A stretch of DNA of 64,000 nucleotides, taken from contig CP051237.1 in assembly GCA_017794825.1 (NCBI GenBank), positions 2,418,001 through 2,482,000 on the forward strand, read 5' to 3'. Below, in pieces: positions 23,905 through 47,212 of the stretch. Position 1 is the stretch's first letter; each line of letters starts with the position of its first letter. A program made the translations under genes and the position numbers. The DNA comes from Pararhizobium sp. (lineage in GTDB: Bacteria > Pseudomonadota > Alphaproteobacteria > Rhizobiales > Rhizobiaceae). The notes beneath the pieces were generated by a model, which ran no database searches, was not told where the DNA came from, and saw only the letters and a program-made list of their open reading frames with translations.

Positions 23905-23968
23905 ACATCGAGCAACTCTTGCACCGGGCGCAAAACCCCGACTCTCGCGTTTCTGAGGAAAGCGATCT

Positions 23969-27231: not shown

Positions 27232-27337
27232 GGTATAACAGCATGCGGGATTGATTGGATTGTCGACATAACGGCGCTGATCTACTTTCGAGCCTATTGA
27301 AAGCCATCGCCATCGAAGCAAACAACAAGGAAAAACA

Positions 27338-28357: not shown

Positions 28358-28358
28358 A

Positions 28359-29183: not shown

Positions 29184-29304
29184 GCGTCGTCTCGATTAAT
29201 CGAAACTGGATATGAAGCCTATCGAATTTCATATCATTATCCGATTGGTGACGAGAGACTATATTCCTTACGAGTGATAGTTCGGCCATGCCTGAAAGGA
29301 AGCC

Positions 29305-29703: not shown

Positions 29704-29740
29704 GGTCGCTTAACCGTCCACAACAAGGAAAGTCAGGATA

Positions 29741-31222: not shown

Positions 31223-32277
<1,055 letters not shown>

Positions 32278-32290
<13 letters not shown>

Positions 32291-32480
32291 AGATCGGTGT
32301 GATCACGCCGCCGGCGGGGATCAACCTTTTGCGATGATTGGCGCATCCGAGCGACGTGTGAATTCCCCGCTGATGTTTCGCGTAATCCTGCCTTTCATCA
32401 TCATGGAATGCATCACCTTTCTGTTGCTGCTAATAATCCCTGAAATTTCGACTTGGCTGCCTTCGTTAAGCTACGGTTGA
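32278..32480 (+). pseudogene. C-terminal remnant of a TRAP transporter large permease (DctM)
   Basis: The frame at 32278 reads IEIGVITPPAGINLL, the conserved motif of DctM/large TRAP permeases, then stops at a TGA. Shifting by one base at the TTTT run continues as AMIGASERRVNSPLMFRV, then a hydrophobic last helix and TWLPSLSYG to a stop at 32478-32480. That matches the last 65 residues of such permeases with one base lost. No other TRAP component is present here, so this is debris of a lost transporter. Confidence 0.7.
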
Positions 32481-32519
32481 ATAAGCCAATTTTACCATGA
32501 TGGGAGGTATTGCATAGAC

Positions 32520-33377
32520 ATGATCAAAAGCTCCAACGCACCCGACAAAGTGGCAGTCATCATTGGCGCCACGTCGAAATGGCAGTCGGACGGCGCCAAC
32601 ACCCATTTGATCGGGGGTGGTCCGATTTCCGATGCCGACGTGCCTGTCACCGCACGCTGGGGAATTGGCGGGGCATTGGCCCAGAAATTCGCTGATGAAT
32701 CCTACCTGACCGTGGTCACCACGCGTCGCAGGGAAAATGCGGCGCCCCTGGCCCAGGCGATTGAAGAAACCGGTGGGCGTTGCATGATCGTTGAGCTTGA
32801 CCTTGAACGACGCGAGTCGATCGCCGAAGCCTTCGCCGTGATCCGCGAGGCGACGGGCGTACCCGAAATCGTGATCTACAATGCAGGCTATATCCACGGG
32901 CGTGAGCTGCCGGCGGGACAAGAACTGATCGAGCACGTGCCTGAAGACATCTTCGAAACTGCGCTCAGTATAGCCTGCCGGGGTCCGTACCTTATTGCCA
33001 AGACTGTTCTGCCGCTGATGCGTGCAGCCGGCCAGGGTTCGTTTTTTCTGACCAACAACCCCCATTCGCTTCGCGGTAGAAAACGGCGCACCGGGGAATC
33101 GCTTTACTATCCGCGGGTGTTGATGCGTGCCCTCAGCCAGGTGTTGACTGAGGAATATTCACCACATGGAATTCATGTCGCCAACGTGATCGTCGACGGC
33201 ATGATCGATTCGCCCGGAACTCGCATAGTGCGGGATGGACCCCATAAGGATAATGATGAATTACTCCTTGATCCCAAGCGCATCGCCGAAGCCTATTTCT
33301 ATCTGCACATGCAGGACCGGAGTTGTTGGACGCACGAAATCCAGCTGACGCCTTTCAATCGTCCGGTGGCATTCTGA
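32520..33377 (+). CDS. Atypical SDR family protein
   Basis: 285 residues. The fold is SDR-like (VAVIIGA, VTTRRREN, IYNAGY, GPYLIAK), but two features are odd. The glycine motif is split: GATSK is separated from WGIGGALA by about 25 extra residues. The catalytic position reads LYYPRVL, so there is tyrosine but no lysine four residues on. It may be a non-catalytic or altered-mechanism member. The start at ATG 32520 lies soon after GGGAGG. It stands alone between two copies of a direct repeat. Confidence 0.75.
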   Translation: MIKSSNAPDKVAVIIGATSKWQSDGANTHLIGGGPISDADVPVTARWGIGGALAQKFADESYLTVVTTRRRENAAPLAQAIEETGGRCMIVELDLERRESIAEAFAVIREATGVPEIVIYNAGYIHGRELPAGQELIEHVPEDIFETALSIACRGPYLIAKTVLPLMRAAGQGSFFLTNNPHSLRGRKRRTGESLYYPRVLMRALSQVLTEEYSPHGIHVANVIVDGMIDSPGTRIVRDGPHKDNDELLLDPKRIAEAYFYLHMQDRSCWTHEIQLTPFNRPVAF

Positions 33378-33420
33378 GCAGGTAATCCCGTGTGGCATAG
33401 GTATCGACTTTAGCTTGAAC

Positions 33421-33505
33421 CGGATCAACCGCTGATCGGCGCGGCCGCGGCGACACCAGCCCGAAGGGTGAAGTCCCATCGCGCCTAAACGATCATAGGT
33501 GTCGA
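33421..33505 (+). repeat. Imperfect direct repeat, copy B (overlapping cyclase gene end)
   Basis: The partner of the repeat at 32204-32290. It contains the last 15 bases of the AKR gene out of context, followed by flank and the end of the convergent cyclase gene. The two copies bracket about 1.1 kb containing the TRAP remnant and the SDR gene. Confidence 0.55.
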
Positions 33506-34942
33506 CCAGATCGATACGGGCCTGCTCCTGCCTTTCACGATATGCTCTCCGCCGGGGCTGAGGTTCTTGACCAAAGTCTGAATTTCAGCCCCGCATGCTT
33601 TGGCTGTTGCCACCAGATCATCGCTCGCTACGATTGAAGCTTCGATTTCACGCGTGAGACTTTCGAGCCTGCTTGCCACGTTCACAGTATCACCGAGTAC
33701 GGTGTACTCCAGACGTCTGTCATCTCCGATATTGCCGACCAGAACCTCGCCATAGTGGACACCGATCCCGATGCCGATTTCAAGTTCGTGACGGGATCGA
33801 CGTTCTCGGTTCCATCTCTCGATTTCGGCGACCATTTCACCTGCGCAAGCGAGTGCCCGAACTGCATCATCCGGACGTGTGCGAGGGGTTCCGAAATTCA
33901 CCATGATCGCATCACCGATATACTTGTCGACGGTCCCGCGATGGGAAAAAGCGATCTGGGCGAGCCTGCCGTGAAACTCGCTCAACAGCTTCACCAGTTC
34001 TTCAGGCTCAAGACGTTCTGAAAGACTGGTAAAGCCCCGCATATCTGCAAACAGAACTGCGACTCTCTGCCTGGCAGGTATCAACGCCTGACTGCTCGAC
34101 GACAATTCGCGCACGATATTTGGCGAGAAATACCGTGACAGGGCGCTGCGCTGCGCCTCGGCAGAAGCCTGCCTGCGCACCAGACGGCGCGATCGCCATA
34201 CGGTGAGCGTCAGTATTACCGTGACCAGAACCAGAAAAACAATCTGATATTGGAGTGTCGTGAGACTGACTGTATCCGGATCGAGGAATTCTTCCAGGAT
34301 GGCTGCATCCTCGCCACGTTCGAGAGCCTCGCTCGCAGTCCTGGTATTGGCGCCCGGCTGATTGGCCACCCACAGATAGATGCCGCTCCACGCACTGATG
34401 CAGGCCACTCCGGTCAGTAGAACCAGCCTGGGTGAATAGCTCAAAGCCATGCTGACCAGAAATACGCCGAGCCAGAGGAAATTCCAGAGACGCAGATTGA
34501 GTTGCGGCGTCCAGTTATCAAGGGGAACATAAGGGGCTGGAACAATCAGGACATAGCTCAGCAGTAGCGCATCGAGGAGCAACAGGACGGGGACCAGCCA
34601 TCGCCACCGCCGTGTCCCAAATCGGGTCAGCAAATGGGAAAACGCACCAAGAACTGCGAAAGCACCAAGAACCAAAATATAGAAAATGGAGCGGTCGAAC
34701 GGGAGCGTAAGCGACCAGCCGGCAAGGATGGCAATTATGATCATGCGAACCCGAAACATGTAAGCCATGCCGCGCCTTTCCTCGCGTGCAATGGCATCGC
34801 CGATTGCGTTGACCGGTTTTCCCTCGTCAGCTATGCGCAGGATAGAAATCGCCTTGCGTGCAGCACCCGAGCCCATCCAGTCTTCAAGGCTTAACAGCAA
34901 GCTCAATCCGGTCACCGACTTACCCTTTGTATTTGGGCCCAT
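33485..34942 (-). CDS. Membrane-bound class III adenylate/guanylate cyclase
   Basis: 485 residues from ATG 34942. About five or six transmembrane helices lie between 60 and 240, then a linker helix and a class III catalytic domain at about 285-480. Metal aspartates are in VLFADMRGFT and YIGDAIMVNFG, and the transition-state pair N/R is in VNVASRLE. The nucleotide made cannot be read safely; DKYIGDA with lysine favours ATP. The longer open frame upstream lacks a ribosome site and overlaps the AT-poor flank. It is convergent with the island SDR region and may link membrane signals to cAMP. Confidence 0.85.
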   Translation of the reverse strand: MGPNTKGKSVTGLSLLLSLEDWMGSGAARKAISILRIADEGKPVNAIGDAIAREERRGMAYMFRVRMIIIAILAGWSLTLPFDRSIFYILVLGAFAVLGAFSHLLTRFGTRRWRWLVPVLLLLDALLLSYVLIVPAPYVPLDNWTPQLNLRLWNFLWLGVFLVSMALSYSPRLVLLTGVACISAWSGIYLWVANQPGANTRTASEALERGEDAAILEEFLDPDTVSLTTLQYQIVFLVLVTVILTLTVWRSRRLVRRQASAEAQRSALSRYFSPNIVRELSSSSQALIPARQRVAVLFADMRGFTSLSERLEPEELVKLLSEFHGRLAQIAFSHRGTVDKYIGDAIMVNFGTPRTRPDDAVRALACAGEMVAEIERWNRERRSRHELEIGIGIGVHYGEVLVGNIGDDRRLEYTVLGDTVNVASRLESLTREIEASIVASDDLVATAKACGAEIQTLVKNLSPGGEHIVKGRSRPVSIWSTPMIV

Positions 34943-35145
34943 TCGCTGGGCATTCCTGCGGAGGTGGAAGCGCGAGTATCCGATGACGGACCAGAACAGG
35001 CAAACAGCCAGTTGATTTCGGTTGGGTGATCGTATTCGGCAAATGCGGGGCACCTGCATCAGGGGATGCCGGTCAGGCAATCGATTCGATCGCCAGCCAG
35101 CAAGAGCAATGGGTTTCCGGCATCGGAAAGACGCGGTCTAATATC

Positions 35146-36345
35146 TCAACTCGCGGGCCTCAGGCGCACCAGCGCGCCATTGTCCGCATCGATCAGTATC
35201 ATGACCGCACCGTCTTCCTGTGCCACATCAACATCGCGAATACGATTCTGCCCCTGCAGATAGCGTGCTTCGCCCACGACGCGTCCATCCTCGAGATTGA
35301 GCCTAACCAGGGCTCTTGCCGCAAGCCCACCGATCAACGCATCTCCTTGCCAGTCGGGAAACATTGGACCGTCGTAAAATACCAGTCCGGAAGGCGCGAT
35401 AACCGGATCCCAGTAGTACACGGGTTGTTCCACATCGTCGCGTTCGGTGACGCCATTGCCGATTGGAGACCCGGAGTAATCTTCGCCATAGGTCACGGTG
35501 GGCCAGCCATAGTTTAAGCCTGGTTGTGGTCGGTTCAATTCATCGCCGCCGCGCGGACCATGTTCCACCGTCCATAGCGTCCCGTCCGGACCAATTGCCG
35601 CCGATTGCAGATTCCGGTGACCAAAAGACCATATTTCCGGCAGGCCCCCTTCGATTTCCGGATTGCTCGCGGCAGGACCTCCCATCGGGTCGATGCGCAA
35701 CACCTTGCCCAGATGCGTACCTACGTCCTGAGCAAGATGGCGCGGTTCAGGCAGAGAGCGCTCGCCGGTGGTCACGAAAAGCGCGCCCTCCCCGTCGAAG
35801 ACCAGTCTTGAGCCAAAATGCAGAGTCGACCGCCATGCGGGCTGCTGTTGAAAGATAACCTCGACCTGCTCCATCGCACTGCCATCCGGCGACAACACTC
35901 CGGTAGCGACGGCTGTGGCATTCTCGCCATTGCCACGCGGCTCGGAGAAGCTCCACCACACGCGTCGGGTATCGGCGAAATCCTCACGAACCACGACGTC
36001 CAGCAGGCCACCCTGCCTTCTGGCGTCCACTTCCGGAAGACCGGCGATTGGTCCGGAGAGCAGGCCTTCGGGCGACACAATCCGCATGCGTCCCGGTCGT
36101 TCCGTTACAATCCAGCTTTCATCCGGCAGCTGGTCCATTCCCCATGGATGATCGAGGCCGTCCGCAATGACATCTCTTTCGAGGGTCAGGCTGTCTTCGA
36201 CGACGGGCGCACGGGTTTGATTGTTGAAGGCAGGCGTCTGTGACGCAGCGTTGGGAGACGCGGCGTTGAAATTCTGAGCGGATGCCGAAGCAATGCTCCC
36301 GAAGAGCATCACTGTCGCCAGGCGGGAATACAATGAATGTGTCAT
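35146..36345 (-). CDS. PQQ-dependent sugar dehydrogenase (YliI/aldose sugar dehydrogenase type), exported
   Basis: 399 residues with a signal peptide (MTHSLYSRLATVMLFG, cleavage near ASAQN). A six-bladed propeller of the GSDH family follows: GLDHPWGMDQLP, TERPGRMRIVSPEG, FGHRNLQSAAIGPDG, EHGPRGGDELN and YYWDPVIAPSGLVFY. Members oxidise aldose sugars or other alcohols in the periplasm using PQQ. No pqq synthesis gene lies nearby. ATG 36345 gives the proper leader; the frame continues 21 codons upstream. It follows the CMD-cupin gene by 19 bases on the same strand. Confidence 0.87.
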   Translation of the reverse strand: MTHSLYSRLATVMLFGSIASASAQNFNAASPNAASQTPAFNNQTRAPVVEDSLTLERDVIADGLDHPWGMDQLPDESWIVTERPGRMRIVSPEGLLSGPIAGLPEVDARRQGGLLDVVVREDFADTRRVWWSFSEPRGNGENATAVATGVLSPDGSAMEQVEVIFQQQPAWRSTLHFGSRLVFDGEGALFVTTGERSLPEPRHLAQDVGTHLGKVLRIDPMGGPAASNPEIEGGLPEIWSFGHRNLQSAAIGPDGTLWTVEHGPRGGDELNRPQPGLNYGWPTVTYGEDYSGSPIGNGVTERDDVEQPVYYWDPVIAPSGLVFYDGPMFPDWQGDALIGGLAARALVRLNLEDGRVVGEARYLQGQNRIRDVDVAQEDGAVMILIDADNGALVRLRPAS

Positions 36346-36364
36346 CGATCTTTCTTTCGACCGT

Positions 36365-37600
36365 TCAGCTATCGTTATCGCACAGAGAGTTTGCGGGTCC
36401 GTCGGCATACACAGCGGGGTCGACCTTCTCCATCCACGTCACACCTGTTCCATCCATTGATTCCAGCAAGGCAAGATGTGTCATCGCGCTGTCTTCCGAG
36501 GCTCCATGCCAATGGCGAACATTAGGAGGAATCTGGATGAAATCTCCGGGACCGGCTTCGATGATATCGTTACCTTCGCTCTGCACCCACGCGCAGCCTT
36601 CAGTGACATAGAGTGTCTGACCCAGCGGATGGGTGTGCCAGGCCGTATAGGCGCCAGGCTCGAAGTGCACGATGCCGCCGCCGAGTGCCGCCGGTTCTGG
36701 CGCGGAAAAGAGCGGACCGACGGTGACCGTACCGGTAAAGTTCTCTTCCGAACCTTCGAGCGTTTCGCCGTCTTCACCTCGCACAACGCCAAGCGGCGCC
36801 TGAACGATCTTCGTTGCGCCGTCGTCCCGGCCACTGTCGGTTGCCTTCGCCACGAATACTTCGTTAAGAACAGGCACAGCAGAAAAGGCACGCGGCCAGC
36901 CGGTATAATAGGCAAGGTGCCGCACCATTTCGCCGGCTTCCGCTTTGCTCATGCCATTGTCGATGGCACGGTTCAGATGGAAAGGCAGTTGTTCCGCCTG
37001 CCCCATCGCGATGAGCGCGGCCATGGTCACCATCGATCTGTCGCGCGGAGCAATGCCCGGTCGCAGCCACAGGTCGGCAAACAGCACCTCGTCCGTATCA
37101 TCGGCCAGATTGGAAGCTACAGGTCGCGCGACCCGGTCAACGGCCGCTGCGCGAGCCGCTTCGGTCTCGACATCCTGCGCCAACCGGGGTGCGGATGTGT
37201 CGATCTCTACTTCTACGCCGCGGTCGGCGAAGACCTTCTCGACCTCGAAAACCGAAGAAATCGTCACGGGCCAGCCGGCGTAGAACGCAAGATGCGCCAG
37301 CATCTCCGCGATCTCTTCGGGCAATACGCCGTTATCAAGCGCACGCGCCGTATGTCCGCGCACCTGTGCGGAATTGCCGGAAGCAATCAGGGCAGCAACG
37401 GTTACAAGGCTGCGGTCACGTGCCGAAAGCGTGCCGTCAGGCCAGACTTCGCCGAACAAGACCTCGTCGGTATAGGCGCCGAAAGGCGGCGCCACCTTGT
37501 AGACAGCCTCCGGAGCAATGCGGCCCTGCGGACGGTCCTGAGCATTGGCCGCAAGCGCCAGGCTCGACAGCAGAATGGAACTTGTGATGGTCTTGCGCAT
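36365..37600 (-). CDS. Exported fusion: two carboxymuconolactone decarboxylase domains plus cupin
   Basis: 411 residues with a signal peptide at 1-20 (AANAQ). CMD domain 1 at about 40-135 (VTVAALIASGNSAQVRGHTARALDNGV, HLAFYAGWP) and CMD domain 2 at about 165-255 (VTMAALIAMGQAEQLPFHLNRAIDNGM, HLAYYTGWP) are internal repeats. A cupin at about 290-400 has HTHPLGQ and HWHGA. CMD domains usually lack free catalytic cysteines in this subgroup, as here. The cupin is a paralogue of the separate cupins at 29305 and 63618. ATG 37600 has GGAGAC before it. Enzymatic role unknown; lactone or peroxide chemistry is possible. Confidence 0.87.
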   Translation of the reverse strand: MRKTITSSILLSSLALAANAQDRPQGRIAPEAVYKVAPPFGAYTDEVLFGEVWPDGTLSARDRSLVTVAALIASGNSAQVRGHTARALDNGVLPEEIAEMLAHLAFYAGWPVTISSVFEVEKVFADRGVEVEIDTSAPRLAQDVETEAARAAAVDRVARPVASNLADDTDEVLFADLWLRPGIAPRDRSMVTMAALIAMGQAEQLPFHLNRAIDNGMSKAEAGEMVRHLAYYTGWPRAFSAVPVLNEVFVAKATDSGRDDGATKIVQAPLGVVRGEDGETLEGSEENFTGTVTVGPLFSAPEPAALGGGIVHFEPGAYTAWHTHPLGQTLYVTEGCAWVQSEGNDIIEAGPGDFIQIPPNVRHWHGASEDSAMTHLALLESMDGTGVTWMEKVDPAVYADGPANSLCDNDS

Positions 37601-37656
37601 GATTTGTCTCCGGGATTGGCACAGAAGCCGGGTTTGGGTTGTGTGACGGCGCGTGC

Positions 37657-39852
37657 TCAGACGGCAGGCAACTCGTCGAGAAGCTTGTCGAGCTTGACGG
37701 GGTAGTCTCGGGTGCGGACGCCGGTGGCGTTGTAGACGGCGTTGGCCACCGCAGCCGAGACACCGCACAAGCCCAACTCGCCCACGCCCTTGGCCTTCAG
37801 CGGGGATGAAACGTTATCGAGTGTGTCGAGAAAGACCACGTCCTGTTTCGGAATATCGGCGTGGATCGGAACCTCGTATCCCGCCAGGTCGTGATTGACG
37901 AAAAAACCCTTCGCCGTGTCGACGGCGATCTCTTCCATCAATGCAGCGCCGACGCCCATGACCATGCCGCCGATCACCTGGCTTCGGGCCGTGATCGGGT
38001 TCAGGATCCGGCCTGAATCGCAGACCGCAAGCATGCGTCGCACACGGACCTCTCCCGTGGCGACATGCACGCCGACCTCCACGAAATGGGCAGCGAATGT
38101 GGAAACGACCTGTTCACGTCGAAACTGCCCGAATTCGATGCTGTCTTCCGCGACGATTTCTCCGTCTGCTGCGATGTCACCGAGCGGGGTCAGGGTTCCA
38201 CCGTTTGCGACGCCTCCGTCAGCGAATATCAAGGCGTCTGCATCTTCGACATCCAGTCGGCCGGCGATTTCCCTGCGCAGGGCGATACAGGCAGCGTAGG
38301 TCCCGGCGGTGGAGCTGGCCGCGCCCCATTGGCCGCCCGACCCCGAAGAAACGGGATAGTCGCTGTCGCCCAATCGAACCTCAACCTGGTCGAGTGGGAG
38401 ACCCATTGTCTCCGCGGCGGTCTGCGCAATGATTGTGTAGGAGCCCGTGCCGATGTCAGTCATGTCTGTTTCTACGATCAGCCGCCCGTCCGGTTGCAGA
38501 CGAACGCGCGCACCGGATGTCGTGGCAGGGCCGCCACGATAGGCGCCGGCCATGCCATGACCGATCAGCCACATGCCGTCCCGTCGAGTTCCGGGGGCCG
38601 TGTTGCGATCAGCCCAGCCGAATGTCTCTGCACCCTCGCGAAGACATTCCACAAAATGCCTGTCGGAGAATGGTCTTTCCGGGTTTTCCGGATCGACCTG
38701 GATATCGTTGATCACACGAAACTCGACCGGATCGATGTCCAGTTTTTCGGCCATTTCATCCATGGCGATCTCCAGCGCCATAAGACCTGAAGCCTCACCG
38801 GGCGCCCGCATCGCATTGGCCTCGGGAAGATGCATTTCCGCCAGGTGATTGACTATCAGCCGGTTCTCGCCAGCATAGAACCTCCGTGTCTGGGCAACCG
38901 CGTTCTCGCCGCGCCCCCCGGGCAATGTATTGGACATCGCCTCGTGCGATATGGCGGTTATGCGGCCATCCGGGGTGGCGCCGATGCGAATCCGCTGAAT
39001 GGTCTGGGCGCGATGGGTCGTGTTGTTCATGATCATGGGACGCGGCAGTGTCACCTTGACCGGTCGCCCCGTCTCCCGGGCAGCGAGAGCAGCGAGAATA
39101 GCATCGGCGCGAACAAACAACTTCACACCGAAGCCGCCGCCGATGAATGGACTGTCGACGCGGATATCTTCGGAATCCATCGACAACGTGGTCGCGAGGG
39201 CGGACTTGTTCCACTGTATCATCTGGTTCGACGTCCAGATCGTCAGCTTGCCATCCTGCCACTCGGCGATGGTGGCGTGCGGCTCCATCATCGCGTGCGA
39301 GTGCCCCGGGGTCCGGTATGTCTCGTCGAGTGTCACCGGCGCCTCGGCAAAGGCAGTTTCGAAATCTCCGATGCTGGAGACCGGCTCCGCGCGCTCGCGA
39401 TTTTCCCAGGCCTCTTCGAGATCGAAACTGGCGTTCCCGTCGACCTCATAATCCACATCAATCATCCGGGCGGCGGCACGAGCCTGTTCGAAACTCTCCG
39501 CCACGACGACGGCGATCGCCTGATGATAATGTTCGACGATGTCACCGCCAAACAGATGCGCTACATGCCAGTTAGAGGGTTTCGGCATCGAACCAATGTC
39601 GAGCGCGGAAATTACCGCCACTACCCCCGGCGCCGCTTCGGCTCTGGAAGTGTCCATCGACAGAATACGGCCTTTGGCAATGGCCGACCCGAGAGGATAG
39701 CCGACCAGTTGTCCGTCAGCCACGTCATGACGTTCATAGGCATAAGGCGCGCTGCCGGTTGTCTTCAACGGACCATCTATACGCGGTGTGGGTTTACCGA
39801 TCACCTGCGCGCTATCGAACAGGTTCGTTCCTGCAGGGGCGTTGAATTGCAT
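37657..39852 (-). CDS. paoC: Molybdenum aldehyde oxidoreductase large subunit (PaoC/YagR type)
   Basis: 731 residues, the length of E. coli PaoC (732). This subunit of the xanthine oxidase family binds the molybdenum cofactor: GGGFGVKLFVRAD, MRAPGEASGLMALE and the catalytic glutamate in GVGELGLCG near 705 are seen. It is the third gene of a paoA-paoB-paoC operon, five bases after paoB. In E. coli the complex sits in the periplasm and oxidises a range of aldehydes to acids. The order and lengths match that system closely. Confidence 0.9.
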   Translation of the reverse strand: MQFNAPAGTNLFDSAQVIGKPTPRIDGPLKTTGSAPYAYERHDVADGQLVGYPLGSAIAKGRILSMDTSRAEAAPGVVAVISALDIGSMPKPSNWHVAHLFGGDIVEHYHQAIAVVVAESFEQARAAARMIDVDYEVDGNASFDLEEAWENRERAEPVSSIGDFETAFAEAPVTLDETYRTPGHSHAMMEPHATIAEWQDGKLTIWTSNQMIQWNKSALATTLSMDSEDIRVDSPFIGGGFGVKLFVRADAILAALAARETGRPVKVTLPRPMIMNNTTHRAQTIQRIRIGATPDGRITAISHEAMSNTLPGGRGENAVAQTRRFYAGENRLIVNHLAEMHLPEANAMRAPGEASGLMALEIAMDEMAEKLDIDPVEFRVINDIQVDPENPERPFSDRHFVECLREGAETFGWADRNTAPGTRRDGMWLIGHGMAGAYRGGPATTSGARVRLQPDGRLIVETDMTDIGTGSYTIIAQTAAETMGLPLDQVEVRLGDSDYPVSSGSGGQWGAASSTAGTYAACIALRREIAGRLDVEDADALIFADGGVANGGTLTPLGDIAADGEIVAEDSIEFGQFRREQVVSTFAAHFVEVGVHVATGEVRVRRMLAVCDSGRILNPITARSQVIGGMVMGVGAALMEEIAVDTAKGFFVNHDLAGYEVPIHADIPKQDVVFLDTLDNVSSPLKAKGVGELGLCGVSAAVANAVYNATGVRTRDYPVKLDKLLDELPAV

Positions 39853-39857
39853 GACTA

Positions 39858-40814
39858 TTACTCCCTTGCCTCGGTCAGCATTACCGCGAGCGTGCGTTCA
39901 GCCAGAGTTATCTTGAAGGCATTGTCATCTTTGGGATTGGCGCCTTCCAGGAGGCGCGCAATGACGGCGGAGGCGCCGTTCGGCAACTCGGCGTCGGCGG
40001 CAGCGTCGCGCCATGGGCGCGGTGCGACACCGCCCAAAGCCACCCGGCCGGAACCGTCCGGCTGCACGACGAGCGCCACGGATACAAGAGCAAATGCATA
40101 GGATGCCCGGTCACGCACCTTGTGATAGGCATGATGCCCTCCGAGCGGTGCTGGCAGAACGACGGACGTGATGAACTCTCCCTTTTGCAGAACCGTTTCG
40201 GTGTCTGGTGAACCGCCAGGCAGCGCGTAAAACTCTGCCAAGGGAATCGAGCGGCTGTTTCCGCTGGGCAAAACAGTCTCGATCGTCGCGTCAAGCAGCA
40301 TCATTGCAACCGCCATGTCGCTTGGATGGGTAGCGATGCATGCCTCTGATGTACCGATGATTCCGAGCTGACGCGTGGCGGCGCCTTCAACCTGTGCGGC
40401 ACAGCCAGAGCCTGGATTGCGCTTGTTGCAGGCCATATTGGTGTCATAGAAATAGGGGCAGCGGGTTCGCTGCAAAAGATTGCCTGCCGTCGTTGCCTTG
40501 TTGCGGAGCTGCCCGGATGCCCCGGCGACCAGCGCACGGGTCAATACACCGTAGTCGCGACGGATGCGAAGATCGGCGGCAAGATCGGTGTTGCGCACCA
40601 GCGCGCCGATGCGCAATCCTCCGGAATCAGTCTCTTCTATCGCATCGAAGCCAAGGCCGTTCACGTCGATCAGATGCACAGGAGTTTCTATCTCAAGCTT
40701 CATGAGATCGAGAAGGTTTGTCCCACCCGCAATGAACTTGGCGCCTGAAATCTCCGAGGCGCGCAGGGCCGCAGCAGCAGGATCTGCGGCGCGTTCGTAA
40801 CTGAATTCCCTCAT
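39858..40814 (-). CDS. paoB: Molybdenum aldehyde oxidoreductase FAD/4Fe-4S subunit (PaoB/YagS type)
   Basis: 318 residues, equal to E. coli PaoB. FAD-binding elements are [16 protein letters not shown] and [23 protein letters not shown]. The segment [21 protein letters not shown] carries the extra cysteines that bind the 4Fe-4S cluster typical of PaoB. It overlaps paoA by four bases upstream and is followed by paoC. It passes electrons from the molybdenum site to an acceptor. Confidence 0.9.
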
Positions 40815-41461
40815 GCCCGTTCCTCCGCAACCTGCTGGATGGCAGCCAGAATATTGTCGTAGGCGCCGCAGCGGCAGATGTTGCCGGACATGCGCTCCTT
40901 GATTTCCTCGCTGCTCATCGGAATGTCTGCAGTTATGTCATCAGTGACATGGCTTGGAATTCCGGCCCTGATTTCTTCGATTACTGCCTTGGCCGAACAG
41001 ATCTGACCCGGTGTGCAGTAGCCACACTGAAATCCATCATGCTCCACGAAGGCAGACTGCATCGGGTCCATATCGTCGGGCGAACCCAGACCTTCGATCG
41101 AGGTAATCTCGTCACCTTCATGCATGCATGCCAGGGTCAGGCATGAATTGATCCGCCGGCCATTGACCGTCACAGTGCAGGCGCCACATTGGCCTTGGTC
41201 GCAACCCTTCTTGGTTCCGGTGAGCTGCATGGTCTCGCGAAGCGCATCGAGCAGAGTTGTCCGATTGTCCACATCCAAGTCGCGTGCTGCACCATTGACG
41301 GTAAGCTGGACCGAAGCTCTGACCGGGCCGACAGGGGCGGCGATCTCCAGTGAATTCGGATCCTGGGCCAGAAGATCTGTCGGCAGATGCGCCAGCAGCG
41401 CAGTCGCCGCTGTGCCGAGCATCAGTTCCCGGCGTTTCAGTCTTATCTCGGGTGGGCTCAT
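40811..41461 (-). CDS. paoA: Molybdenum aldehyde oxidoreductase 2Fe-2S subunit with Tat signal (PaoA/YagT type)
   Basis: 216 residues. A Tat leader ([17 protein letters not shown], cleavage near LLAQD) exports the whole complex. The plant-type 2Fe-2S set [16 protein letters not shown] plus one C later, and the second cluster CGYCTPGQ...[10 protein letters not shown], are complete. First gene of the operon. The dedicated cofactor chaperone paoD is not seen beside paoC, so insertion of the cofactor must use a protein encoded elsewhere. Confidence 0.9.
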
Positions 41462-41954
41462 GGTGAATCCTCTTTGCTGGACCGGGGCCGACAGGGCATC
41501 AACGCATGACGTGGGATGCGCCTGTCCTGCCCTTGCAGTCTGGCTGGTCGTTCACGACCTGCCCTATACAGCTAGTGGTTTCACCTCTGGGGATTAGGTG
41601 CGGATATTCGATAGGACTAATAAGTCTGGTTCATGAATAGGCCACAGCGAGGGAAGATTAATCACATTAGAAGTGCATGAATCCGGATCGGAGGTAAGAT
41701 CGAGCATTGATGCCAGAGTGCTAGAAATTCGCAATGGTGAGATCAAACACAACGAAAGTGAGTTGATGTTCACCATGGGCCGGTCTTGCTCATTCTGCGA
41801 AGACAAGCCAACGGGGATATTTGGCCCTTTTTCGCCGTATTCACATGCGGGAAAATCCGTCCGGAATCATGGGCAGTCCGGACGTTTTGACAGAATGGGT
41901 CTGCCAGACTTCACGAACAACGAGACAGGATCCAGACAGATCTACACATCCCAA
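41462..41954. other. Intergenic region upstream of paoA, no recognised gene
   Basis: About 490 bases with no gene I recognise. The paoA promoter should lie at the left end. The open frame beginning at 41673 has no family similarity until it enters the istB fragment near 41955, so its first part is not treated as coding. The sequence is probably insertion-element wreckage. Confidence 0.4.
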
Positions 41955-42277
41955 TCGACAGCCCTGATCGCCAATCGGCTTGTCCATTTCGATCTCGTCA
42001 TCCTCGACGAACTGGGATACCTGCCGTTCAGTGCATCCGGGGGAGCTCTGCTCTTCCATCTCCTCAGCAAGCTCTACGAGCGCACCAGCGTCATCATAAC
42101 CACGAACCTGAGCTTCAGTGAATGGGCTGCCGTCTTCGGTGACGCCAAGATGACCACCGCATTGCTCGACCGGCTCACCCACCACTGCCATATTCTCGAA
42201 ACCAGAAACGAAGCTTCCGTTTCGAAAACAGCACTGCAAACCAGTTCGAAAAAGAAGGGAGAAAAGCAAAATCTTGA
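41955..42277 (+). pseudogene. istB: IS21-type istB fragment
   Basis: From about 41955 the frame reads [23 protein letters not shown], then the IstB core [20 protein letters not shown] and [14 protein letters not shown], the Walker B and sensor part of IS21 helper ATPases. The P-loop half is missing. A one-base shift near 42210 is needed to continue as ESFRFEN-like sequence to the TGA at about 42275. No istA is present. This is a dead remnant that ends just before an IS3 element. Confidence 0.75.
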
Positions 42278-42339
42278 CCACGGCATAACCGCCGTTCCTG
42301 TCCGTCGTCAGAGTTATTCGGAAAGCGTGAGCGTTTTCA

Positions 42340-42357
42340 CAACGGAGGCTCTGGTTC
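42340..42357 (+). repeat. Left terminal inverted repeat of the IS3 element
   Basis: CAACGGAGG followed by CTCTGGTTC. Matches the reverse complement of 43729-43748 except for two extra bases and one change in the middle. It lies about 16 bases beyond the end of orfB. Confidence 0.6.
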
Positions 42358-42372
42358 GGTTTCTGTTTGAGT

Positions 42373-43341
42373 TTAGGCGGCCGCGGCTTGGTGCTGCAAC
42401 CGGCGTTTTCGGATTGTCTGTTTCTTGATCTCCTCTCTCATCTTCAGGATATTCGCGCCTCGGCCGTGATAGACGTCGGCGGGTGTCAGGTTGGCTAGGC
42501 TCTCGTGGTAGCGATGGTTGTTGTAGTGATCGACGAAGGCGCTGATCTGGCGTTCCAGGTCGCCGGGCAGGAAGTAGTTTTCCAAGAGCACACGGTTCTT
42601 CATCGTCTGGTGCCAGCGCTCGATCTTGCCCTGGGTCTGCGGGTGATGCGGGGCGCCACGGACATGATCCATCCCCTTGTCTTCGAGATAATCAGCCAGA
42701 TCGGCAGCAACGTAAGATGAGCCATTATCGCTGAGCAGCCTCGGCTTCTGCACAACCGTCGCGCTGCCGCAGCCGGATGCCTCCAGCGCGCCGGTGACGT
42801 CCGCAGCTTTCATCGTCGTGCAGAGCTTCCAGGCAATAATGTAGCGACTATAGTCGTCGAGGATCGTGCTGAGATAGAACCAGCCCCAGCCGATGACCTT
42901 CAGATAGGTGAAGTCGGTCTGCCAGAGCTCGTTCGGCCGGCTGGTTTTGTCCCGGAACTCATCGGCCGCGCGGATCACCACGTGAGCCGGGGCAGTGATC
43001 AGATCCTCGGCGCTGAGGATGCGATACACCGAGGATTCCGAGACGAAGTAACGTTTCTTATCGGTGTATTTGACCGCCAATTCGCGGGGCGTCAGGTCTT
43101 CGTGCTCCAGGGCAAAGTCGACGACATCGTCGCGAACCGTGTCCGGGATGCGGTTCCAGACCGACCCGGGCCGGGGCGAACGATCGGCCAGGCCATCGAT
43201 GCCGCCATCGCTCTAACGCGCGTACCAGTCGTAATAGGTGCTGCTGGGGATGCCGAGCATACTCAAGGTCTGTCGGGTCGGCAGATGTGATGCCTCGACC
43301 GTGCGGATGATCTCCAGCTTCTCAGATGCGGGATACCTCAT
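42373..43341 (-). pseudogene. IS3-family transposase orfB with in-frame stop
   Basis: From ATG 43341 the frame encodes 42 residues (RYPASEKLEIIRTVEASHL, a helical lead-in, to TYYDWYAR) and then meets TAG at 43213-43215. The same frame continues without a break through SDGGIDGLADRSPRPGSVWNRIPD into the DDE integrase core: LWQTDFTYLKV (first D), LLSDNGSSY (second D), GKIERWHQTMKNR (E), ending at 42373. The stop therefore replaces a sense codon in an otherwise complete 322-residue transposase. Without suppression the element cannot move on its own. Confidence 0.8.
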
Positions 43342-43363
43342 TCGTCGTCGCCCCCATCCCCGA

Positions 43364-43705
43364 TCATGCTTTTTTGAGCAGACGGTTCTCAAGCGTCAGC
43401 CCAGCAACCACCTCCTTCAGCGCGGCAGATTCCGACCGCAGTTCTTTGACTTCAGGAGATGTCGCTTGTCGCGCTGTGTCACCCGCCAAACGGTTCTTCC
43501 CGGCTTCGAGGAATTCCTTTGACCAGGAATAATACAGGCTCTCGGCCTCACGGCGGCACAGCGCGGCAATGCTCTCCTCGCCACGAAGGCCCGCCAGAAC
43601 AATCCTGATCTTCTCCTCGGCAGAGTAGTGTTTGCAGGTTTTCCTTTTGATACCCCTGACCAACTTGTCAGCGGCTTCCTTCGATGTTCCGGATGTCTTG
43701 TTCAT
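43364..43705 (-). CDS. IS3-family transposase orfA (helix-turn-helix subunit)
   Basis: 113 residues from ATG 43705. The HTH_Tnp_1-like domain KHYSAEEKIRIVLAGLRGEESIAALCRREAES is followed by a leucine-rich coil (EVKELRSESAALKEVVAGLTLENRLLKKA), which in IS3 elements dimerises the protein. It ends in AAAAAAGCATGA; orfB lies in the +1 frame relative to orfA, so a simple -1 slip on the A run would not fuse them, and orfB probably starts on its own ATG. Confidence 0.8.
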   Translation of the reverse strand: MNKTSGTSKEAADKLVRGIKRKTCKHYSAEEKIRIVLAGLRGEESIAALCRREAESLYYSWSKEFLEAGKNRLAGDTARQATSPEVKELRSESAALKEVVAGLTLENRLLKKA

Positions 43706-43728
43706 CTTCGCTCCATAATGGCTTCGAT

Positions 43729-43748
43729 GAACCAGAAATCCTCCGTTG
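43729..43748 (-). repeat. Right terminal inverted repeat of the IS3 element
   Basis: Read on the minus strand: CAACGGAGGATTTCTGGTTC. Its outer neighbour TGAG gives a TG-starting end, typical of IS3. Pairs with 42340-42357. Confidence 0.6.
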
Positions 43749-43751
43749 CTC

Positions 43752-44214
43752 AAACCCCTAATTCTGTCCGGTAGACGCTGACGTCAGACAGACTCTAAGT
43801 GAACTTCCCCGTTTCAGCCTATGTTTTAGAAAGTCGGAAGCGAAACCACGATTGTTGTTGTCTTTGATCCCAGTGGGATTCATTCCTGCAATCCTATCCG
43901 TCAACTATCCGAATCATTGTCAATGGGCCACAATGAATCGTTGGGTAAAGCGGTGTCCAGCTCCATCTTGAATTGTGCATGCACAACAGCTGAGAAGTAA
44001 ATAGTTTCTCAGGAGTAGCGCAGTCTGTCGTAAGACATTCGCTCGCTAATCTGTCGTTCATCTCAGTTGGGAATCCCTTTGTTCGGATGTGCGGACACAT
44101 GCAATTCGTCTACGCAGAAAAGAGCATAATCGAAGTGTCCCCTTTCTTTTAACCGTCCACGAGTTTGAATTTCAAAAATCGTTTGTCCAAATGGCTATCG
44201 ATGATCAATGGATG
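43752..44214. other. Intergenic DNA between IS element and integrase, no gene seen
   Basis: AT-rich stretch without a convincing open frame or RNA gene. I searched it by eye for a copy of the tRNA-Ser 3' end that could be the second attachment site and found none. Confidence 0.4.
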
Positions 44215-45840
44215 TTAGCTTCTCGTGTTGCGCTCAAATAGATCCTGCGCACGTCTGAAGTCGGGATCTGTTTCTGCGATCTCATTGCGCTCGTAGGCGA
44301 GATAGAGCTCGAGCTCGGTTCGGTGTGAGAGGGCACGGCGGCAGAGTTCGTCGAGGACGGTTTCGCGCTCACTGTCCTGCATGGAGGCATAGTGCTTACG
44401 GATCGTCTCATATGGTGTGTGACCGAAATTGAGCTGAAGGGCGACTTCTTCAATTATCATCATCGCCCCACGCTTGGAGAGAAAGGGATGCAAGATCTTG
44501 CGGAAATCACGCGACGAGATGCCCTCCCTCGAGATATCCGCAGCTTGGGCCGCATTCTTGATAATCTGCTGCACCGGGTCATCGGATTTCCAGCATTGCG
44601 CTAATTCGGCTTCAGCTGGTCGATAGCCGAGGCCAATCCGGTTTGGCTGAACGTAACGGTCCGGTAGAAAGAATGGAGCATTGTCACCGAAGTCATTCGC
44701 TTCGCGCCACCGAGCCCACTCCGTGATCGCACCGAGCAACCCCGAACCCAAATCAAGGCAATAGGTGCGGATGTGTTTACCCCTTTTGGTTTTAACCCCG
44801 TCGCGCGGATCTTGATTGATCCACCTTGTCTGTGTGTTGACATGCTTACCTCGGAGCGTAATCAGAGCTGCAACGCGGATGCCAGTCACGATAAACATCG
44901 AAATTATAGCTCGATTCCGCAGCTCGACCGGTGACGATTGCGGCATGGCCGCGAAAAGGCAGAGCGCCTGGTGGTAATTCAAACTAGTCCCTTTCACCAT
45001 ACCGTTTTCCGCAGCCCGTTCATCGCGAGAAAGTTTGAAATAGCCGGGAAGATCAGGATCCATCCGGATATCGGGCCGGCGCTGCAGCCATCTGAAAAAC
45101 GCACGGCAGCGATCAAGTGTATGCAACACAGTCGATCTACTGAGCCCCAGGGATCCTTCAAGGTCTCGCCTTCGACGAAGCTCTTTCTTGAATCGACGGA
45201 CATCGTCGATGGTAACTGATTCAAGGGGCTTGTGGCCGAGGAATGCGCTCATTCGTGCAAGCGCGCGCAGGTGTTCATCTTTAGTTGGCACCTCGCTTTC
45301 CTGATGGTCGTCAAGAAAGATCCTGTAGCTGTAAAGTCGCCGCAAATTGGAACTGTTAGTTTCCGGTGGTATTGGGGCCCCATTTCTCACAACACCCCGA
45401 GAGACTCCACCTTCATTTGCGTCGGACGAGTCTACGGCGTTGTTGTGGGAAGCGGAATAAATTTCGCCCAGAATACTAGGCGCGACGCTGACTTGTAGCA
45501 TGTTGTGGCAATCCATGCACTTTCCTGTCACTGAGAGGCATGTGCTTTCAGTCGCATCAACTAGGATAGTCCCAGCAACCAACGGCTTGAATCCCAAGCA
45601 TCCCGAGCAAAATACTCGTCCATTCTCGGGCAAACGGCCTTCTGACCAGCGCATATCCGTAAGGACCTGGCGCACTTTATATCCAGTGAAGAGTTGAGGG
45701 CGCTTGGTGTCGATAGGCTCCAGTCCGCGACGTATCCAGTTGGTTATAGTGTTGTCACACACACCGAACATCTCGCTGAGTTCTTCTCTGGTGTAGACCC
45801 AGTGGCGGCGTGCTTTGGTGGGATCGTGCCGGCGCGACAT
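44215..45840 (-). CDS. Large tyrosine recombinase with N-terminal HTH and zinc-binding cysteines (island integrase)
   Basis: 541 residues. Residues 13-60 resemble a MerR/AlpA-like HTH (YTREELSEMFGVCDNTITNWIRRGLEP). Next come four cysteines in two CxxC pairs (FCSGCLGF near 78-81 and GKCMDCH near 108-111), likely a zinc ribbon. A SAM-like core-binding domain lies at about 180-270, and the catalytic domain at about 300-510 with TGIRVAALITLRG (Arg), a weak SSRDFRK box in place of HxxR, FGHTPYETIRKHYAS (His and Tyr). It is two bases after the second AlpA gene and reads away from the tRNA-Ser gene. This is most likely the integrase of the genomic island. Confidence 0.83.
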   Translation of the reverse strand: MSRRHDPTKARRHWVYTREELSEMFGVCDNTITNWIRRGLEPIDTKRPQLFTGYKVRQVLTDMRWSEGRLPENGRVFCSGCLGFKPLVAGTILVDATESTCLSVTGKCMDCHNMLQVSVAPSILGEIYSASHNNAVDSSDANEGGVSRGVVRNGAPIPPETNSSNLRRLYSYRIFLDDHQESEVPTKDEHLRALARMSAFLGHKPLESVTIDDVRRFKKELRRRRDLEGSLGLSRSTVLHTLDRCRAFFRWLQRRPDIRMDPDLPGYFKLSRDERAAENGMVKGTSLNYHQALCLFAAMPQSSPVELRNRAIISMFIVTGIRVAALITLRGKHVNTQTRWINQDPRDGVKTKRGKHIRTYCLDLGSGLLGAITEWARWREANDFGDNAPFFLPDRYVQPNRIGLGYRPAEAELAQCWKSDDPVQQIIKNAAQAADISREGISSRDFRKILHPFLSKRGAMMIIEEVALQLNFGHTPYETIRKHYASMQDSERETVLDELCRRALSHRTELELYLAYERNEIAETDPDFRRAQDLFERNTRS

Positions 45841-45842
45841 TG

Positions 45843-46421
45843 TCAGCGATGAGTGCGTCTGCGCGACTTATGGAACTCTACAAAACGGTCGATTTCTGAC
45901 CAGTCCCAGCGCGTGGAACCGCCAATCCTGATCGGGAGTGGAAAATCGGGATCTTTGCTCGGCAACCGCCAGACCTTCGAGACGCTCATACCCAGGTAGG
46001 CTGCGACTTCTTCAACCCTCAGCATCCGAGGGGTGATTGCTGCTGGCGTTTGCTTCAGAGAATCCTCTGACGCCGGAGGTATGCTCTCGATTAAATTATC
46101 TGCATCATTTGTCACTCGATCCGGGCGCTCAGACACAGCTGAATCTGAGGTTAAGTCAGCATCTTCCGATACATTATTCCCTATTGTTGAGCCGACTTCA
46201 GCCCTATGTGAAAGATCAAAATGATGCGGTTTTCTGCCAATCTCACGTGCCTGGCTCGCTTCTGCATAGACGTTGTGATGACCTTTCGTGTCGGGGTTGC
46301 CCAATCCCGTGGAGGGCCCAGGGGAGGTGTTGCCGTCGAAAGCTGATAGCACTTCCGGATCAGCGTCGGATCCCGACCCAGAGCGCACGAATCCGGCTTC
46401 CTGGCACCAGTCTTTGCTCAC
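45843..46421 (-). CDS. AlpA-like helix-turn-helix protein (candidate recombination directionality factor), long form
   Basis: 192 residues. The last 65 form an excisionase/AlpA HTH: MLRVEEVAAYLGMSVSKVWRLPSKDPDFPLPIRIGGSTRWDWSEI (shown here in part; the hallmarks are the YLGMS helix and the G-S-T-R-W wing). The first 125 residues are polar and low in hydrophobics, probably disordered. ATG 46421 overlaps the upstream AlpA stop by four bases, and the integrase follows after two bases. Such proteins usually bend attachment DNA for excision or activate the integrase. Confidence 0.78.
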   Translation of the reverse strand: MSKDWCQEAGFVRSGSGSDADPEVLSAFDGNTSPGPSTGLGNPDTKGHHNVYAEASQAREIGRKPHHFDLSHRAEVGSTIGNNVSEDADLTSDSAVSERPDRVTNDADNLIESIPPASEDSLKQTPAAITPRMLRVEEVAAYLGMSVSKVWRLPSKDPDFPLPIRIGGSTRWDWSEIDRFVEFHKSRRRTHR

Positions 46422-46840
46422 GACAGGTTCTCCAGACTTCCTTCAAAAGCCCGGATCTCGGACTCCCGCCATCGGCTCGTGCCAGGTGACAACTTCACAG
46501 GTTGGGGAAATCCGGGACGGCTTTTAGCCCAGCGCCAGATTGTCGCTCTCGTCACATGATAACGCGCACAAAGGTCGCGGACGCTTAGATAGCTTTCGGG
46601 TGTAGGTCTCGAGGCGAAACCCAGATTCTGAACTGACTGTTCAGGTGGAGGGTCAGCTGGAATAGTATTGTTCGCTTCAATTCCAAATGGAAATGAAGCC
46701 GCTTCCTGCAGATCGAATATCGCAGTCTCGTCTGAGCTCCCAGTTTCTTGTCCCGTCGTATCCACGGGCAGGAGATTTTTGAAAAGCTCAGTCTGTTCGG
46801 ATGGTACAGTCTTTTCTGACCATAAAGGTTTGCGAGGCAT
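46418..46840 (-). CDS. AlpA-like helix-turn-helix protein, first gene of the integration module
   Basis: 140 residues from ATG 46840, chosen because GGGAGC lies four bases upstream; an ATG at 46852 lacks a ribosome site. The HTH is in the last 55 residues (YLSVRDLCARYHVTRATIWRWAKSRPGFPQPVKL, then SPGTSRWRESEI). The first half is polar. It is related in plan to the next gene but not a simple duplicate. Two different AlpA proteins in front of one integrase suggest a two-part control of integration and excision. Confidence 0.75.
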   Translation of the reverse strand: MPRKPLWSEKTVPSEQTELFKNLLPVDTTGQETGSSDETAIFDLQEAASFPFGIEANNTIPADPPPEQSVQNLGFASRPTPESYLSVRDLCARYHVTRATIWRWAKSRPGFPQPVKLSPGTSRWRESEIRAFEGSLENLS

Positions 46841-47122
46841 GCTTGCTCCCATGCTGCATAGCAGCGTTTGGAGCCCAGCACGTCCTGCGCAGAGGCTTTG
46901 TTAAACGAATGGTCTCAATCTGACCGATTCGCATTCTTTTGGCAATAATTGGTATCGCAGGTGCACAGCTGAAAAATCCCGATGCCAGTGGATCTTGCAG
47001 TTCAATTCGCGCATTCCCATGTGACGAGGGCAATAACCTGACAGCGTCTGTGGGGCTGAATGATGGTCCAGCTTCTTAAATACTAAATAATTGCTATTAT
47101 TTCAGCTATTTACAATCTTTTC

Positions 47123-47212
47123 TGGCGGAGAGAGAGGGATTCGAACCCTCGAGACGGTTTCCCGCCTACACACTTTCCAGGCGTGCGCCTTCGACCACTC
47201 GGCCACCTCTCC
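47123..47212 (-). tRNA. tRNA-Ser (anticodon GGA)
   Basis: On the minus strand the 90-base sequence starts GGAGAGGTGGCCGAGTGG and ends with encoded CCA. The acceptor stem pairs over seven positions (last a G-T wobble), the anticodon loop is CTGGAAA with anticodon GGA, a long variable arm (GGCGGGAAACCGTC region) is present as expected for serine tRNA, and GGTTCGAATCC is the T loop. Its 3' end faces the island integrase module, so it is the probable attachment site. Confidence 0.95.

Follow-up and report, generated by a model that had tools for sequence, protein, structure and literature searches.

A probable accessory cassette with a Xer-like tyrosine recombinase at the tRNA-Ser(GGA) end of a P4-type genomic island in Pararhizobium sp.

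Must a recombinase whose gene adjoins a tRNA be the enzyme that uses this tRNA as its integration site? The question is raised by a stretch of 64,000 nucleotides from Pararhizobium sp. (GenBank CP051237.1, positions 2,418,001 to 2,482,000; from here on the window, with negative positions lying to the left of its first nucleotide), where two AlpA-like genes and a gene for a 541-amino-acid tyrosine recombinase (YR) are arranged head to tail beside tRNA-Ser(GGA). The original prediction, made from the nucleotide sequence, took these three genes for the integration module of an island, in place of a P4-type integrase. We analyzed the genes, the limits of the surrounding foreign DNA and the relatives of each component.

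Three genes beside tRNA-Ser(GGA)

Identification of open reading frames and Pfam searches confirmed the gene content and the packing, a four-base overlap followed by a two-base gap (Table 1). The genes lie on the tRNA strand and are transcribed away from the tRNA 3′-end. Both small proteins exceed the Pfam curated cut-off of 21 bits for Phage_AlpA, and the first is presumed to be an excisionase or regulator. Relatives of the second, with 202 amino acids, occupy the same position at loci L005 and L006. The three contiguous tyrosine recombinase genes by which recombinases-in-trio and GInts are recognized are absent, as there is one YR gene with two AlpA-like genes.

Table 1. Features of the window between the island cargo and tRNA-Ser(GGA)
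Feature	Coordinates	Strand	Evidence
Portion of the island cargo lying in the window; transport and catabolism predominate	1..41461	.	Synteny gap with G415; Pfam
Transposase remnants (IstB fragment; ORFs matching HTH_Tnp_1 and rve) separating the cargo from the cassette	41673..43753	.	Pfam
541-aa fusion of HTH/Zn-ribbon protein and simple (Xer-like) tyrosine recombinase	44215..45840	-	
Core-binding and catalytic domains (approximately residues 164-516) with Arg in place of the HxxR His	44293..45351	-	
Presumed Zn-ribbon, C78/C81 and C108/C111	45508..45609	-	Four Cys invariant in 26 rows
HTH part, residues 15-64	45649..45798	-	HTH_17 match below cut-off; predicted helices
AlpA-like HTH protein 2, 192 aa	45843..46421	-	Phage_AlpA 27.7 bits
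AlpA-like HTH protein 1, 144 aa	46418..46852	-	Phage_AlpA 22.8 bits; PHROG excisionase matches
Non-coding island end, tRNA to first AlpA gene, A+T-rich beside tRNA	46853..47122	.	Sequence
14-nt att core, tRNA 3′-end: arm TGGCGGA (7 nt) and spacer GAGAGAG (7 nt)	47123..47136	+	
tRNA-Ser(GGA), integration site	47123..47212	-	ARAGORN; blastn match with G415 begins exactly at 47123

In the 541-amino-acid protein, Pfam detected Phage_integrase (residues 290-489) and a SAM-like domain (185-255), and there was no Arm-DNA-bind match among the hits. The best structural match of the model, over residues 164-478, was XerA (Z 16.8, rmsd 9.4, 254 residues aligned). The protein is a simple, Xer-like recombinase in that it has the core-binding and catalytic fold and no recognizable arm-binding domain. 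The HTH (HTH_17 at residues 15-39, below the Pfam cut-off), the two CxxC pairs and the RDFR box that had been predicted were all present. However, the N-terminal part that had been regarded as extra proved to be a neighboring gene fused to the recombinase. Among 47 loci (counted without L131, a repeat of L086, and without a weak YR match of 89 amino acids in L112), the HTH/Zn gene was separate and adjacent in 41, fused in three and not detected in three. The existence of the pair in split and fused forms suggests joint action of the HTH/Zn-ribbon protein and the recombinase. The N-terminal 150 amino acids, folded alone, had no PDB match at E 0.001 or better and an HTH match to BldC at E 0.075, a result that excludes nothing. 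Comparison with the L006 protein gave dN/dS values of 0.27 for the N-terminal part and 0.13 for the YR part.

The catalytic set of tyrosine recombinases is R-K-H-R-H/W-Y. Residues R179, K208, R299, H325 and Y335 are invariant in 24 rows. The HxxR box reads HDFR in the L005 and L006 relatives (73% identical) and RDFR in the window, and the loss of this histidine indicates that the window copy may be impaired.

The island and its far-end integrase

The foreign block of 65.4 kb is a P4-type genomic island integrated in tRNA-Ser(GGA). Blastn and synteny comparisons showed that DNA from G415, of the same genus, aligns no further than the exact CCA end of the tRNA, read from the sequence at 47125-47123. 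Since G415 carries other DNA at this position, a clean empty site was not seen in the comparison. To the left, the island extends past the window start to -18323. A copy of the tRNA end, which the original prediction proposed to look for on the far side, was found there twice, as an exact 14-nt copy at -18323 (G000 2399677) and as a 16-nt copy at -21168. The former, the partner att copy, reads TGGCGGA-GAGAGAG-TCCGCCA, and 164 bp from it lies the gene of a P4-type integrase (-18145..-16928) with the domains Arm-DNA-bind_3 (PF13356), Phage_int_M (PF22022) and Phage_integrase (PF00589). The island therefore possesses an integrase with an arm-binding domain, direct repeats of the tRNA 3′-end and an integrase gene beside one att copy. 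The usual position of the integrase in P4-type islands is next to the tRNA; here it is distal. The 16-nt copy was set aside as main att partner, being without an inverted arm and away from the integrase. Because the foreign DNA reaches out to this copy, the element may alternatively be a single one of 68.3 kb; we treat -21168..-18323, with EAL and DUF4440 genes, as a separate tandem remnant.

As read from this arrangement, the far-end integrase probably inserted the island. Strand exchange would take place within the 7-bp spacer of TGGCGGA-N7-TCCGCCA and would leave the 14-nt repeat. The non-coding segment at the tRNA side presumably includes the att arm and the promoter region; A+T-rich island starts, judged by eye, also occur in other tRNA-Ser islands. 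Cargo content was assessed by running Pfam on a sample of 20 proteins, of which 18 are encoded between -16762 and 39852. An integrated island with direct repeats at tRNA-Ser(GGA) and a conserved three-gene unit thus stood as originally proposed, whereas the role of this unit as tRNA integrase was not supported.

tRNA choice among relatives

The neighborhoods of homologs were surveyed, and the order AlpA-HTH/Zn-ribbon-YR was conserved wherever all three components of the cassette were detected. A P4-type arm domain was found no more than 6 kb from the cassette at 26 of 42 loci, against 0.48 expected under random placement, a lenient null given the general clustering of mobile genes at tRNA hotspots. 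The other 16 loci had none within 6 kb, including nine with none on the contig. The 42 loci are rows that reach the recombinase part, excluding G000, N-terminal-only rows and four further rows below the family cut-off. Since only a few candidates were scored in each genome, the numbers of YRs are minimum values. The position of the cassette relative to the P4 integrase varies: it was downstream and colinear, convergent or at the opposite end of the island. Cassette islands with two recombinases occur across the order to which the window belongs and in named Roseobacteraceae plasmids. Phage records had no match at E 1e-5, nor did a viral-contig scan that is sensitive to close relatives only. 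The cassette was not recognized in the literature searched, which in full text comprised open-licence papers. The HTH/Zn-YR pair alone was also observed in a plasmid of Legionella, where a serine recombinase is its neighbor.

To which of the two recombinases tRNA choice belongs was addressed with phylogenetic trees of 32 integrase-YR pairs. The six nearest kin of the window's P4 integrase in this set all belong to tRNA-Ser islands with the same repeat. Together with the window's own integrase they make up two subgroups (the window, G321, G098, G217 C50 and G186; G328 and G344). In all seven cases the island occupies a tRNA-Ser gene (anticodons gga, cga, tga and gct), the repeat is one of tRNA positions 77-90, and the integrase is distal. 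When the trees were first built, the tRNAs of G344, G217 C50 and G186 were not yet known; G186 was unlabeled, and the Ser label of the other two came first from the core sequence and was later confirmed. A tRNA label is lacking for six of the 32 pairs (TM1040, R. conchae, G395, G019, G006 and G096). The tRNA type tracks the phylogeny of the P4 integrases more closely than that of the YRs: the tRNA-Ser labels require one change on the P4-integrase tree (support 98) versus four, at least two of them forced, on the YR tree, which is unsure because its deep branches are long. The supported branch puts four unlabeled integrases (G006, G019, G096, G395) together with those of the Ser islands. Agreement between the trees is weak (r 0.25; 82 of 2000 shuffles as high), and the partnership is therefore loose.

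Islands with related P4 integrases and no YR match served as controls, chosen from the best-ranked matches by size of contig; nine were scanned, and a tenth (G240, 1.3 kb) was unused. Five islands bounded at both ends are in tRNA-Ser with a 14-15-nt repeat; in one of them, G090, the integrase adjoins the tRNA instead of being distal. In G289, where the integrase also adjoins tRNA-Ser, no second repeat copy was found. An AlpA-profile match was present in eight of the nine stretches, in seven of them no more than 3 kb behind the P4 integrase, and AlpA therefore seems part of the island core. Conversely, the cassette also occurs in tRNA-Leu, -Thr and -Ala islands, with a P4-type integrase adjoining the tRNA. 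The cassette was rejected as the tRNA-Ser integrase because the tRNA follows the P4-integrase tree and YR-less islands keep site and repeat. In the window it is the cassette that borders the tRNA, with the P4 integrase far away, which counts against an accessory role. Nonetheless, the P4-type integrase at the far repeat, the YR-less tRNA-Ser islands and the contrast between the trees lead us to consider it likely that the island was integrated by the far-end integrase and that the three genes form an accessory cassette without a part in the choice of tRNA.

Role of the cassette and relation to known systems

As an accessory unit, the cassette would travel with P4-type islands and supply a second, simple Xer-like recombinase, its AlpA proteins being presumed excisionases or regulators. 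The HTH/Zn-ribbon protein, a separate adjacent gene product in most relatives and fused in the window, most likely recruits the recombinase to a putative second site and not for tRNA choice. Such a site could serve in control of island excision, dimer resolution or cargo exchange. No YR recombination site was found among inverted repeats near the cassette, palindrome copies and break-points. A palindrome or double motif recurs at eight loci, roughly 75-96 bp before AlpA (e.g., CCGAATTCGG). It was strong at some loci (0 or 1 of 60 shuffles) and not at others (up to 12 of 60), had no copy pattern at cargo borders at 15 loci, and resembles an operator more than it does a core site.

There is some chance, clearly smaller, that the cassette is instead an independent small mobile element that prefers P4-type islands near the integrase and parasitizes them. 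Its variable position, the weak congruence of the trees and the sharp edges of the homologous block in the L078/L080 pair, one lying 98 bp upstream of AlpA and the other 10 bp beyond the YR stop codon, agree with this explanation. However, AlpA seems to be island core, the order of the three genes is constant, and terminal repeats of the cassette were looked for and none was found.

We consider it somewhat less probable still that the YR exchanges cargo, or mediates phase variation, for the defense genes often found behind it. Nine of 10 large ORFs from nine cassette loci matched PADLOC restriction/defense models at E 1e-20 or better (eight of nine loci), compared with two of nine proteins (two of five loci) in YR-less controls; these ORFs were hand-picked, mostly by size, from nine of 15 listed loci, the samples are small, and defense genes are frequent in P4-type islands in any case. 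BREX genes (BrxF, BrxC, PglXI) start no more than 0.8 kb behind the YR in L006, and restriction-modification genes flank it on both sides in Ruegeria TM1040. Nevertheless, none of 18 proteins sampled from the cargo of the island looked defense-like in the Pfam searches, and break-points in close island pairs revealed no shared site at cargo borders.

Least probable, and in our opinion improbable, is that HTH/Zn-YR and AlpA are the tRNA-Ser(GGA) integrase and the P4-type enzyme belongs to another, older or tandem island: the cassette does abut the tRNA, the two left repeats suggest more than one event there, and in L077, L081, L037 and L085 the YR is within 0.8 kb of tRNA-Ser or directly after tRNA-Ser within the cassette, but in L077 and L081 the far repeat is likewise accompanied by a P4-type integrase, the -18323 repeat with its inverted arm adjoins the P4 integrase in a position and length found in six other islands, and the YR-less and non-Ser islands described above argue against it.

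Tentatively, the accessory cassette may define a class of two-recombinase islands in which a Xer-like YR obtains a second DNA-binding function from a separable HTH/Zn-ribbon subunit, in effect an arm-binding domain supplied in trans that is fused to it in the lineage of the window, and acts alongside a P4-type integrase, perhaps exchanging or holding defense cargo. If the accessory reading is correct, many P4-type islands hold a second, uncharacterized recombination system, several of them beside restriction or BREX genes. Cooperation between the HTH/Zn-ribbon protein and the YR would make the origin of two-site integrases testable. The accessory reading would also caution that a recombinase adjoining a tRNA need not be the one using that tRNA.

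CP4-57-like islands are P4-type (Arm-DNA-bind_3/PF13356) tRNA islands with AlpA. The intY and alpA islands of Pseudomonas are P4-type islands of this kind, and the window's island resembles them, as far as described in the part of the source considered here, in its tyrosine integrase, tRNA/tmRNA 3′-end, 14-bp direct repeat and AlpA and, in relatives, defense cargo (PMC12595487). It differs in the distal integrase and the attached HTH/Zn-ribbon-YR cassette. Simple tyrosine recombinases include Xer, TnpR with DUF3701, IntKX and Brujita (PMC8138268), whose core-binding and catalytic domains the window YR shares, with XerA as its closest structural match; an HTH and Zn-ribbon partner, as found here, is not named for any of them in section 7 of that survey. 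The same 2021 survey, in the portion drawn on here, ties mobile integrases to the gain of an arm-binding domain (PMC8138268), and the HTH/Zn partner, if it acts as proposed, would be another route to adding one. GInts (ginABCD; PMC5385486), strand-biased elements (intA-tfp-intB-srap; PMC10214605), RIT and Tn554 likewise carry more than one tyrosine recombinase gene per element. In these elements, as presented in the cited excerpts, the recombinase genes are adjacent in one operon, whereas the window's island combines a separately placed P4-type integrase with one Xer-like YR accompanied by AlpA and HTH/Zn genes.

Organization of the island at tRNA-Ser(GGA)

The genome of Pararhizobium sp. consists of one contig of 6.06 Mb, and its bases 2418001-2482000 form the window. 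The original prediction read three genes beside tRNA-Ser(GGA) as an integration module, and the ORFs, the tRNA call and the domain matches agree with its description of them. Starting from the 3' end of the tRNA, and all on its strand, there are genes for AlpA-like proteins of 144 and 192 amino acids, which overlap by four bases, followed after a two-base gap by a tyrosine recombinase (YR) of 541 amino acids. In the YR, residues 15-39 weakly match an HTH, and the protein also contains two CxxC pairs. Its core-binding part is SAM-like, and in its catalytic part the HxxR box is RDFR.

The DNA to the left of the tRNA is an island. G415, a genome of the same genus, matches the window rightward from the exact CCA end of the tRNA, and leftward the two rejoin only outside the window. 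A repeat of the tRNA end had been suggested to lie upstream, and two exact copies, of 16 and 14 nt, were found there. The 2.8-kb stretch that they flank, which contains an EAL-domain gene with a CSS motif and a DUF4440 gene, is probably the remnant of an older insertion at this tRNA. At the same tRNA-Ser, G415 has about 41 kb of different DNA with no match to the P4-type integrase or the YR (tblastn, E 1e-3). The tRNA-Ser(GGA) gene looks like an insertion hotspot.

A Pfam sample of 20 proteins included 18 encoded in the island cargo, 17 of which had a family. These were mostly metabolic and comprised transporters, an esterase, peptidase-like hydrolases, and molybdopterin and glucose/sorbosone dehydrogenases. 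The interval between cargo and cassette holds transposase pieces (an IstB fragment, HTH_Tnp_1 and rve).

Coordinates of the features in the island and in the loci compared (negative values lie to the left of the first base of the window)
Feature	Sequence	Coordinates	Remarks
tRNA-Ser(GGA)	window	47212..47123	minus strand
YR, 541 aa	window	45840..44215	minus strand
Start of rightward match to G415	window	47123	CCA end of tRNA
Leftward rejoining with G415	outside window	-21230	
tRNA-end copy, 16 nt	outside window	-21168	exact
tRNA-end copy, 14 nt	outside window	-18323	exact
2.8-kb stretch	outside window	-21168 to -18323	L110 832-3677
P4-type integrase	outside window	-18145..-16928	points into island; domain matches
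Sampled cargo	both	-16762 to 39852	
Transposase pieces	window	41673-43753	
Different DNA, about 41 kb	G415 C6	1072516-1113892	L070, L090
6.4-kb stretch	L078	3902-10301	
Junction	L080	8926/8927	
Region of recombinase-family gene	L039	8840-10385	

The P4-type integrase and the tRNA-Ser site

A standard P4-type integrase (arm-binding, central and catalytic domains) is located at the tRNA-distal end, 164 bp from the 14-nt copy. The repeat beside it, TGGCGGA-GAGAGAG-TCCGCCA, has a 7-base spacer between 7-base inverted arms. Related integrases have the same design beside them in G321, G098 and G344, and a version with the right arm altered in G328 and G217 C50. In a tree of 32 integrases that of the window falls within two adjacent subgroups with seven members together, the first including those of the window, G321, G098, G217 C50 and G186 and the second those of G328 and G344. 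All seven lie in islands in tRNA-Ser genes (anticodons gga, cga, tga and gct), those of G344, G217 C50 and G186 having been identified only after the first tree had positioned their integrases. In every case the repeat spans tRNA positions 77-90 (two bases longer in one) at a distance of 8.9 to 65.4 kb, with the integrase at the tRNA-distal end.

A tRNA was assigned in 26 of the 32 P4 integrase-YR pairs that made up the trees (Leu 11, Thr 7, Ser 7, Ala 1). The tRNA-Ser label required one change on the integrase tree (support 98, with four unlabelled integrases on the same side of the branch) versus four on the YR tree, of which two or more are forced. The two trees agree only weakly, which suggests that integrase lineages have exchanged cassettes. 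As a control, nine stretches around other related P4 integrases were inspected, and none had a YR match; the HTH/Zn profile matched weakly in that of G360 (E 4e-5). In five of the stretches a tRNA-Ser and a 14-15-nt repeat marked the two ends, with the integrase distal in four and adjoining the tRNA in G090. In a sixth, G289, the integrase adjoins tRNA-Ser and the second repeat copy is absent from the stretch. Because these islands have the tRNA-Ser and repeat and no YR match, use of the site would not depend on the YR.

The AlpA-HTH/Zn-YR cassette

Among 397 genomes sampled from the order, at least 38 have homologues of the 541-aa protein (E 1e-8), and among 398 from the phylum at least 14 do (E 1e-20), the window's genome being counted in both. 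Four plasmid records contain homologues as well, including one of Legionella adelaidensis. In this plasmid (L039) a recombinase-family gene, presumably for a serine recombinase, directly follows the YR and overlaps a tRNA-Asn end.

The conserved unit is AlpA, an HTH and presumed Zn-ribbon (HTH/Zn) protein, and the YR. Among 47 distinct YR loci the HTH/Zn gene was a separate neighbor in 41, fused in three (the window, L006 and Ruegeria TM1040) and not found in three. It is also fused in L005; the L005 and L006 cassettes, 97% identical in metagenome bins labelled Roseovarius and Rhizobiaceae, reflect either recent transfer or mis-binning. The four Cys residues of the HTH/Zn part are invariant in 26 aligned rows. 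The best structural match of the YR was XerA (Z 16.8, rmsd 9.4, 254 residues); the N-terminal domain on its own had no significant structural match. In a comparison of the window with L006, the N part had a dN/dS of 0.27 and the YR part one of 0.13, which indicates purifying selection since the two diverged. The HxxR His is present in at least 90% of 24 aligned rows; L005 and L006 have it too, and the window has Arg instead, so that this enzyme may be impaired.

Of 42 loci, 26 have a P4-type arm domain no more than 6 kb from the YR, compared with 0.48 if placement were random; with a limit of 30 kb the number is 32. The order tRNA-P4 integrase-AlpA-HTH/Zn-YR is frequent; elsewhere the integrase is convergent with the YR or lies at the island's far end.

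Palindromic motifs, of which CCGAATTCGG is one, precede AlpA in L075, L079, L080, L086, L088 and L124, and also in L082 and L115. They are centered 75-96 bp upstream of the AlpA start, with two copies about 20 bp apart in some loci, and are likely operators and possibly recombination sites. In L078, one of two close islands, a 6.4-kb stretch fills precisely the interval from the upstream gene to the AlpA promoter palindrome; it corresponds to a junction in the other, L080.

Large ORFs of other cassette islands matched PADLOC restriction or defence models (E 1e-20 or better) in nine of ten cases, at eight of nine loci, versus two of nine ORFs, at two of five loci, in YR-less control islands, a hint only because ORFs were hand-picked, mostly by size. 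In L006 the BREX genes BrxF, BrxC and PglXI start at most 0.8 kb behind the YR.

Proposed roles and relation to known systems

In the proposed pathway, the P4-type integrase would insert the island at tRNA-Ser and, together with AlpA, excise it. In Shewanella, AlpA-family excisionases increased island excision (PMC12016545). Judging from the coordinates, attP in the circular form would be flanked by the integrase and the AlpA operon, oriented back to back and separated by about 450 bp. The HTH/Zn-YR pair would be a second recombinase that brings its own DNA-binding partner, and its fusion suggests that the two function as one complex. Our best guesses are that the pair assists excision or the resolution of dimers, or that it exchanges the cargo behind the YR.

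In the open-licence literature searched, no description of the HTH/Zn-YR pair or its link to P4-type integrases was found, and the simple-recombinase section of a 2021 survey names no HTH/Zn-ribbon domain (PMC8138268). P4-type islands, AlpA and Xer-like recombinases are already known.
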